Of a stretch of DNA of 64,000 nucleotides, positions 6,321 through 22,275 are shown piece by piece. Origin of the DNA: Bifidobacterium breve (lineage in GTDB: Bacteria > Actinomycetota > Actinomycetes > Nanopelagicales > Nanopelagicaceae); the NCBI GenBank assembly GCA_945883725.1, contig CAMCXZ010000005.1:1-64000 (forward strand), written 5' to 3'. The notes beneath the pieces are model-generated. The model searched no databases. It saw only the letters and a list, made by a program, of their open reading frames with translations, and was not told the DNA's origin. The position numbers and the translations under genes were made by a program. Within the stretch, counting starts at the first letter, position 1, and every line of letters begins with the position of its first letter.

Positions 6321-6342
6321 TTGGTAAGGGTATCGTTAGGAC
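6321..6342. promoter_or_regulatory. Overlapping bidirectional -10 elements between glgA and glgC
   Basis: The whole spacer between the two start codons is 22 bases. On the plus strand TATCGT (6331-6336) lies six bases before the glgC ATG. On the minus strand TACCCT (6327-6332) lies six bases before the glgA GTG. The two hexamers share the TA at 6331-6332. Both genes would be leaderless, and the -35 regions would lie inside the opposite genes. Confidence 0.6.
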
Positions 6343-19682: not shown

Positions 19683-20780
19683 TCACATATTTCTTTTGGT
19701 CGCGATGATTGCCATCTCGGTTAACAATTCTCTAGCTTGGGGCACTATTTCATCACGATTTAGGGCTTCTAGCGCGGTGGAAGTTAATTCTTCAATTAGA
19801 TCCTCTACGTGCATGGCAGCGCCAGTCTCAGAAATGATCTCTTGTAGGCGTGCGATAGCGCTTTCGGAGATATCGTGATTTCCGAATTCTTTGAGAAATT
19901 CAGCTTCTGCCCGTCCAGAGATGCGATCGTGGGTCATTGCCATCAATACGGTGCGCTTTCCTTCGCGCAAATCATCACCGGCTGGCTTGCCCGTAACTTT
20001 AGGATCTCCAAAAACGCCAAGTAAGTCATCGCGCAATTGAAAAGCTTCACCAAGGGGTAATCCAAATTCGGAATAAATAGAAATAATGTGCGCGCGCTTA
20101 GCTGCATCAGGAATAGCGATGGCAGCGCCTAGATGAAGTGGGCGCTCGATTGTGTATTTAGCAGATTTATAGCGGGCAATGTTTAGCGCTTGAGCAACGC
20201 TTTGAGTGCCGCGAGCTTGCTCGAATACATCGAGGTATTGGCCGGCAATTAATTCAACTCGCATTTCATCATGCACGCTAAGGGCGGCTAAGAGAGATTC
20301 GCTTTTTATTCCAGAACTGTTCAACATTTGATCTGACCAGATAAGTGCTAGATCACCAATTAAGACTGATGCTGATAAACCAAATTGAGTTGCCTTGCCT
20401 TGATACTTTTCAGCTGAGTGCATGGATTCAAATAATTTATGAATCGCTGGTTCGCCACGACGGGTATCTGAGGCATCCATCAAGTCATCGTGAACTAGCG
20501 CGCAAGCTTGCAGTAATTCCAAACTAGCAAAAGCACGAATCTCATCATCACTTAATTGAGAACCAGCACCCATCGCGCCAACTGCTGCGAAGAGGGGTCT
20601 AAATCGTTTTCCGCCATTAATCACAAAGGCAGTCAAACTTGTGGCCGCTGGCTTTAACTCTGGCGCGATTGCGGTGAAGTAATCACTTTGAGTTGATAGG
20701 AAATCCTGGAGTTGCGCCTCGACTTGCTCGCGCAAAGATTTAAGTTGCTCATGCGGTAGAGCAGATGCCTCAGGTTTCAC
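19683..20780 (-). CDS. idsA: Polyprenyl (geranylgeranyl) diphosphate synthase
   Basis: The 365-residue prenyltransferase builds the C20 precursor for carotenoids. The first Asp-rich motif is DDLMDASDTRRG and the second DDLLGVFGD; GGKRFRP binds the diphosphate. It heads the idsA-crtI-crtB operon, so it acts as crtE, and it is divergent from metF as idsA2 is in mycobacteria. The start is GTG. TATCGT lies seven bases upstream on the minus strand. Confidence 0.92.
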   Translation of the reverse strand: MKPEASALPHEQLKSLREQVEAQLQDFLSTQSDYFTAIAPELKPAATSLTAFVINGGKRFRPLFAAVGAMGAGSQLSDDEIRAFASLELLQACALVHDDLMDASDTRRGEPAIHKLFESMHSAEKYQGKATQFGLSASVLIGDLALIWSDQMLNSSGIKSESLLAALSVHDEMRVELIAGQYLDVFEQARGTQSVAQALNIARYKSAKYTIERPLHLGAAIAIPDAAKRAHIISIYSEFGLPLGEAFQLRDDLLGVFGDPKVTGKPAGDDLREGKRTVLMAMTHDRISGRAEAEFLKEFGNHDISESAIARLQEIISETGAAMHVEDLIEELTSTALEALNRDEIVPQARELLTEMAIIATKRNM

Positions 20781-20803
20781 GCGCGTAACGATACGCTGAC
20801 CTA
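20781..20803. promoter_or_regulatory. Overlapping bidirectional -10 elements between idsA and metF
   Basis: The spacer between the two GTG codons is 23 bases. Plus strand: TACGCT (20792-20797), six bases before metF. Minus strand: TATCGT (20788-20793), seven bases before idsA. They share the TA at 20792-20793, the same layout as at glgA/glgC. Confidence 0.58.
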
Positions 20804-21658
20804 GTGGCTATTCGTGCGACCAAATACTCTTTTGAGTTCTTTCCGCCTAAAGATCAGGCTGGCGAAGATCGCCTTTGGGCTGCCATGTCAGCGCTTGAAC
20901 CGATCGCCCCAGATTTCATTTCGGTTACATATGGTGCCGGGGGGTCAACCCGTGATCGCACAATTCGCATAACGTCACAGATCACCGAACGAACCTCAAT
21001 TCCAACAGTTGCCCATCTAACTTGCGTTGGTTCAACGCGGGGCGAACTAATCGAAATTCTGCAGAAATATAAGGAAGCTGGCATTCATAGCATTCTTGCG
21101 TTGCGCGGTGACCCAACTGGCGGGCCAAGCGCGCCTTGGGTGCCAACAGTTGGTGGATTCAATCATGCCGATCAATTAGTTGAACTAGCAATGGAAGTTG
21201 GCGGCTTTGAAGTTGGGGTTGCGGCATTTCCTGATGGCCACCCGGCATCAAATGGAGATTTAGCAAAAGATGTCGATGTGCTAATTCGCAAAGAATCTCT
21301 GGGTGCTACTTTTGCGACCACCCAATTCTTCTTTGAAGCACAAAGTTATCAAAGACTAGTTGAAGCACTTGCTGCCAAAGGATCTAGCTTGCCAATTATC
21401 CCGGGCATCTTGCCGGTCACCAATGTTAAGCAATTGGTGCGCATGTCTGAACTAAGCGGAACTCCGATCCCAACAAATATTTTAGAAAAATTCTCGGCTA
21501 TCGAAGATGATCAAGAGGCAGTCCAAAAACTAGGTATTGAGATCGCTACGCAGCTCTGCGAACAATTACTCGAATTAGGTGTACCCGGTCTGCATTTCTA
21601 CACGATGAACACTTCATCTGCCACGCTTGAGATTTATCGAAAGTTGGTCAACAAATGA
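20804..21658 (+). CDS. metF: 5,10-methylenetetrahydrofolate reductase
   Basis: MetF makes 5-methyltetrahydrofolate for methionine synthesis. The 284-residue TIM barrel has SFEFFPPKDQAGEDRLW, FISVTYGAGGSTRD, HLTCVGSTRGEL, ILALRGDPTGG, and the ATFATTQFFFEAQSY segment. The start is GTG, probably leaderless. Its stop overlaps the start of the next gene by four bases (ATGA). The divergent pairing with idsA is shared with mycobacteria. Confidence 0.95.
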   Translation: MAIRATKYSFEFFPPKDQAGEDRLWAAMSALEPIAPDFISVTYGAGGSTRDRTIRITSQITERTSIPTVAHLTCVGSTRGELIEILQKYKEAGIHSILALRGDPTGGPSAPWVPTVGGFNHADQLVELAMEVGGFEVGVAAFPDGHPASNGDLAKDVDVLIRKESLGATFATTQFFFEAQSYQRLVEALAAKGSSLPIIPGILPVTNVKQLVRMSELSGTPIPTNILEKFSAIEDDQEAVQKLGIEIATQLCEQLLELGVPGLHFYTMNTSSATLEIYRKLVNK

Positions 21659-22275
21659 TTAGTAAAAAAGATTTCTATAAGCGTTGGAGTGAATTACATG
21701 GAAATGCCAAAATATCGGGCATCGTGCATGCTTGGCTGGCCATCTCGTATCGGTTTGCGTTAATTGCAACCCTGCTTCGCATTTCCCCAAATGTTTTAAC
21801 GCTGCTGGGATTGATTTCAGCAATTGGTACCGCGCTAATTCCACAGTCTTATTGGGCTATCGCTTTAGTTGTGTTATCGCTTCTCTTTGATGGCATTGAT
21901 GGCAGCGTGGCGATTTTCCAACGTCGCGAAAGCGCTTGGGGAGCAATTCTTGATTCAGTTGCCGATCGCATTAGCGAAGCAGCTTGGGCATATGCGCTCT
22001 ATCAAGTCGGAATTCCGCTGGAAATAGCAGTTGGCTTATGGCTGGCAGCTTCCGTTCAGGAATATGCCCGCGCCAGATTGGCCGCTTTTGAAGTTAAAGA
22101 TTTAGGGATTGTTACTTTCGCTGAGCGCCCGATGCGAGCTAGCCTGTTGTTTATTATTTTGATTGCTTGGCAGTTAGATATTCCTGGCCTTGCGGCAATT
22201 GCTGGCGCTTTCTTAGTGATGCAAATTATTGGCGCACTACAAGTAATGCGCTTTGGTTACAAACAACTTCGCTAA
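21655..22275 (+). CDS. CDP-alcohol phosphatidyltransferase family membrane protein
   Basis: The 206-residue protein has about six membrane helices and the CDP-alcohol motif in the form DGIDGSVAIF...G...D...D (LLFDGIDGSVAIFQRRESAWGAILDSVADR region). The usual AR after DGxx is AI here; the four aspartates and the glycines are kept. It joins an alcohol to a CDP-lipid head in this family; the substrate is not known. It is translationally coupled to metF and convergent with the desaturase gene, with a four-base overlap of 3' ends. Confidence 0.82.
   Translation: MISKKDFYKRWSELHGNAKISGIVHAWLAISYRFALIATLLRISPNVLTLLGLISAIGTALIPQSYWAIALVVLSLLFDGIDGSVAIFQRRESAWGAILDSVADRISEAAWAYALYQVGIPLEIAVGLWLAASVQEYARARLAAFEVKDLGIVTFAERPMRASLLFIILIAWQLDIPGLAAIAGAFLVMQIIGALQVMRFGYKQLR

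Follow-up and report, generated by a model that had tools for sequence, protein, structure and literature searches.

Organization of the idsA/metF intergenic region

The window analysed here is a 64,000-nucleotide stretch of DNA (positions 1 to 64,000 of contig CAMCXZ010000005.1) from a 1.34 Mb genome in 61 contigs that is 46% GC and ~86% complete, and which we take to be that of a freshwater acI-type actinobacterium (Nanopelagicaceae). A gene for an idsA-type polyprenyl diphosphate synthase (PF00348; 19683–20780, minus strand) heads a minus-strand carotenoid cluster and is transcribed divergently from metF (methylenetetrahydrofolate reductase; TIGR00676, PF02219; 20804–21658, plus strand), which is followed at its 3′ end by a plus-strand CDP-alcohol phosphatidyltransferase gene (21655–22275). 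The idsA GTG begins at 20780 and the metF GTG at 20804, and the 23 bp between the two start codons (20781–20803) read gcgcgtaACGATACGCTgaccta and contain both −10 elements. On the minus strand the hexamer TATCGT (20788–20793, read from 20793 to 20788) is followed by seven bases and then the idsA start codon, and on the plus strand TACGCT (20792–20797) is followed by six bases and then the metF start codon. The two hexamers form a single core, ACGATACGCT, in which they overlap by a TA dinucleotide (20792–20793) that occupies positions −12/−11 of each −10. Direct reading of the spacer thus bears out the initial annotation in its length, its two hexamers with a common TA, and the gaps of 7 and 6 bases to the GTG codons.

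Leaderless genes are common in this genome. Using a codon-based gene caller that is blind to promoters (1297 genes, 93% coding in this call), TANNNT is found 6 bases ahead of the start codon in 15.8% of genes and 7 bases ahead in 5.3%, as compared with ~1.2% elsewhere. In the genome-wide profile upstream of starts, the hexamer is followed by a T, the bases ahead of the start codon are C-rich, and there is no −35 motif. This signature, TANNNT-N6/7-start, is present ahead of both idsA and metF, with gaps inside the ~6–8 bases that characterize leaderless genes. Both idsA and metF are therefore predicted to be leaderless, with RNA starts at 20780 and 20804, respectively. The predicted starts are 23–24 bp apart and the two −10 elements overlap on opposed strands, as in described shared −10 promoters, for which spacings of 18, 10 or 23 bp between starts are preferred.

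Conservation of the spacer in the family

Ten genera of the family contributed 60 idsA/metF loci, with 57 distinct sequences, to the comparison. None of these sequences departs from the A, T, A and T of ANNNTANNNT, which include the shared TA, or varies at three neighbouring letters, and the commonest core is ACGGTACCCT. The proteins have diverged considerably, with ~48–59% identity to the window's IdsA and ~59–77% to its MetF in nearly all of the loci, and the start codons alternate between GTG and ATG despite the invariant core. Wherever both genes are leaderless the spacer is 22–25 bp, with gaps of 6–7 bases on the idsA side and 6–8 on the metF side. At three loci in one genus (g25) the metF start has moved to a distant position behind a purine-rich, Shine-Dalgarno-like leader, and the ACGGTACCCT core is kept. 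In an eleventh genus (g31), idsA was not found adjoining metF in either of two genomes (L239 and L240). In our reading this conservation is the strongest evidence for a putative shared promoter.

We note that two metagenome-assembled genomes (MAGs) titled Bifidobacterium breve have idsA/metF loci belonging to other groups. The spacer and proteins of one (L149; CAMBGS010000031.1) resemble those of the window's genus and the idsA/metF locus of the other (L157; CAMBQX010000052.1) falls outside it; both titles look wrong.

Loci that have lost metF

In eight relatives metF is missing beside idsA, and both −10 elements are kept in all eight. The losses are of three kinds. At three loci (L101, L102 and L106) metF has been removed and a leader to the next gene is present. 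At four others (L118, L120, L122 and L124) metF is internally deleted and its start codon has changed from GTG to GTT; three of these (L120, L122 and L124) retain a C-terminal metF remnant (FYTMNT or FYTINT) ahead of the next gene. The third kind is represented by L123 (G017), in which an in-frame deletion of metF has joined its GTG and initial codons to the CDP-alcohol phosphatidyltransferase gene, with the junction ~34 bases past the start of the promoter core. The internal deletions suggest that the methionine pathway has been lost in part of the genus. The core persists at these loci and now reads the next gene. Taken as natural experiments, they suggest that the plus-side −10 is still needed after the loss of metF, for the CDP-alcohol phosphatidyltransferase gene that inherits it.

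Shared-TA spacers elsewhere in the genome

The genome contains 152 divergent gene pairs, most of which have longer spacers than the shared-TA type. Seven spacers are 20–25 bp as called, and five of them have the centred motif; shuffling the spacers 200,000 times gave two at most, so the enrichment that had been proposed as a check on the initial annotation is present. When near-equal start sites are allowed there are seven matches, as compared with none for seven decoy cores. These are counted as six distinct spacers, as those on contigs C57 and C59 are near-copies. The remaining pairs, besides idsA/metF and the glg pair described below, are a gene for PIP synthase with the gene next to it, alpha/beta hydrolase and aldehyde dehydrogenase, kynureninase and an ABC-F protein, and leuC-like and IclR genes. 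The 18-bp geometry, TANNNTA, occurs in three spacers of 17–18 bp and in none for four decoys; these are between carboxyltransferase and biotin ligase genes (C1:7639–7656), HhH-GPD (Nth-like) and Crp-type regulator genes (C26:6079–6096), and PMT and TP_methylase (RsmI-like) genes (C22:14446–14462). In the first 800 kb of a genome of another genus (G066) there are three spacers of the 23-bp type and one of the 18-bp type, and none with decoys. A count of CAY-N-core-N-RTG over the genome independent of gene calls was uninformative; the coding genome is TA-poor and chance matches dominate.

C57 and C59 are small contigs with a near-identical leuC-like/IclR region. Because they hold these near-identical copies, the assembly, which has a contamination value of 3.2, probably mixes strains.

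The glgA/glgC spacer (6321–6342; 22 bp) was said in the initial annotation to have the same layout, and this is correct. Its core, AGGGTATCGT (6327–6336), contains TACCCT on the minus strand and TATCGT on the plus strand, with gaps of six bases to each start codon, and the identities of glgA and glgC are supported by protein families. Among 13 genomes checked, the fused spacer is found only in that of the window; glgC retains its own leaderless −10 in the family, and the spacer and the glgA side vary. As the layout is not conserved, we do not use it as independent family-wide support.

A spacer of 22–24 bp between two leaderless genes forces them to share the TA, and the fair measure is therefore whether this length is over-used. 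Among spacers of 13 to 61 bp in which both genes are leaderless, 9 of 49 are 22–24 bp where ~3 are expected (P ~0.003, two genomes pooled; P ~0.02 for the window's genome alone), with the reservations that the two genomes have one homologous pair in common and that the start choice was the shortest option. In the window's own genome, spacers of this length are thus only mildly over-used beyond the expectation for two leaderless genes. The shared-TA spacer is a real but minority layout: the proposal of a general promoter type holds for its recurrence (six distinct spacers of the 23-bp type and three of the 18-bp type) but not for its generality, as it accounts for only ~6 of the 152 divergent pairs.

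Evolution of the fused layout

Elsewhere in the Actinomycetes idsA and metF are usually divergent, and at most of the loci examined each gene has its own TANNNT-N6–8-start. The spacers outside of the family are mostly at least 31 bp, and often 60–150 bp. A departure from this is the Aeromicrobium group (13 loci, one of them named and the others placed by search and tree), in which all 13 have fused spacers of 23–24 bp with the core ACGATACCGT or ACGATATCGT; loci related to this group mostly have two leaderless promoters 62–86 bp apart. A Nocardioidaceae MAG (L167) also has a fused spacer, of 24 bp. The MetF tree requires three changes for the fused form. A single clade of the window's family and Aeromicrobium is not rejected by MetF alone (p-AU 0.071), a tree too weak to do so, and idsA and metF were therefore used together for the topology test, which rejects it (p-AU 0.0005). 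Because the combined trees reject one clade, at least two origins of the fused 22–25 bp layout of idsA/metF are supported, with a possible third that depends on the one MAG (L167). The simplest direction of change, and a probable one, is that a longer spacer carrying two separate leaderless promoters shrank to give the fused layout.

A probable shared leaderless promoter and its alternatives

The anatomy of the spacer, the leaderless signature, the conservation, the survival of the core where metF is gone and its recurrence in Aeromicrobium all support the shared-TA bidirectional promoter of the initial annotation, and we think it very probable that the spacer acts as a bidirectional promoter on one shared −10 with both mRNAs leaderless. 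RNA polymerase with the housekeeping sigma factor would engage ACGATACGCT in either orientation; in the rightward orientation TACGCT would melt and RNA would start at the metF GTG (20804), and in the leftward orientation TATCGT would melt and RNA would start at the idsA GTG (20780). Both mRNAs, being leaderless, would lack a 5′ UTR and neither promoter would have a −35, so that two transcription units would have their entire core regulatory region within the 23 bp. As the −12/−11 pair is common to both promoters, only one polymerase could be accommodated at a time and mutation of the TA would be expected to harm both genes. From the DNA sequences we infer where the RNAs start, that both directions are active, that polymerases exclude one another, and how the spacer arose.

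Given the palindromic GGTACC and the conservation that reaches beyond ANNNTANNNT, the core could instead be an operator at which a regulator controls both genes. However, the additional conserved positions agree with the leaderless consensus of the whole genome (a T following the hexamer and C-rich sequence ahead of the start), the Aeromicrobium cores have other letters at NNN in the same frame, and the gaps are fixed at 6–8 bases to both start codons, which an operator would not need. We consider this reading very improbable and have rejected it. An equally improbable alternative is that the region is active in one direction only with the opposite TANNNT present by chance. With just three bases specified TANNNT is a weak motif, but all 57 sequences have the same outer letter in each element (A in the minus −10, T in the plus −10), and the metF side outlasts metF itself, serving the next gene.

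A more substantial alternative, which we rate at about evens, is that both leaderless promoters work but are ordinary ones that came to overlap as the genome shrank, with the sharing itself functionless and unselected. The forced sharing of the TA at spacers of 22–24 bp given two leaderless genes, the small genome with its high coding density, and the appearance and disappearance of the glg overlap among relatives are all consistent with this. However, it concerns only selection and leaves the mechanism intact, and the persistence of the layout over ten genera, its recurrence in Aeromicrobium, whose genomes (3–4 Mb) are not shrunken, and the excess of 22–24 bp spacers all hint at a favoured geometry. 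Whichever applies, idsA/metF in all likelihood has a real, well conserved, bidirectional and leaderless promoter. A bolder proposal is that pairs of leaderless promoters in the Actinomycetes have been fused onto one −10 repeatedly and under selection, the fusion being kept after gene loss since polymerase competition sets the balance or noise of the two units; we regard this as doubtful.

The suggestion that the promoter links the supply of carotenoid precursors to one-carbon metabolism is not supported. The gene neighbourhood is old in the Actinomycetes and has mostly two separate promoters, and several relatives have lost metF yet kept idsA and the promoter. A shared −10 would moreover predict exclusion between polymerases and therefore not co-activation, leaving a metabolic tie unsupported; in E. 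coli, bidirectional promoters show little competition at basal activity, and strong activation of one side represses the other (PMC12825309).

Bidirectional −10 promoters and their 23-bp class are known, and the interest here is in convergence and deep conservation and not in a new mechanism. The spacer would be a near-minimal regulatory region for two genes, with one −10 serving both, leaderless, in 22–25 bp. The ancestral-like (two-promoter), fused, leadered and metF-deleted forms are all present in living relatives, which makes them a natural series in which to study the origin of bidirectional promoters and any selection for polymerase competition. In the open-licence literature we found no description of shared −10 promoters between two leaderless genes in this group, and no papers on leaderless genes in the Nanopelagicales or on Rv2172c/Rv2173.

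Comparison with known promoters

The idsA/metF spacer is similar to the leaderless promoters of Mycobacterium tuberculosis, where TANNNT elements without a −35 and many leaderless mRNAs have been mapped (PMC3898074), in having TANNNT sited for RNA to start at an ATG or GTG and no −35; it differs in that two such promoters overlap with a common TA. It shares with the idsA/metF loci of other Actinomycetes the gene pair, its orientation and the leaderless signatures, but those have two complete −10 elements where the window has one common element. The closest likeness is to the shared −10 bidirectional promoters described by the Warman/Grainger group (PMC10268837, PMC12825309), which also have divergent transcription from one symmetric −10 and in which 23-bp spacing is a common class. 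At idsA/metF the predicted starts are 24 bp apart, or 23 bp in relatives whose spacers are 22 bp, in agreement with that class (PMC12825309), and the 18-bp class of the same study is also present in this genome, as TANNNTA. In contrast to those promoters, the products at idsA/metF are both predicted to be leaderless mRNAs, the promoter would make up the entire spacer between two protein-coding units, and it is conserved family-wide.
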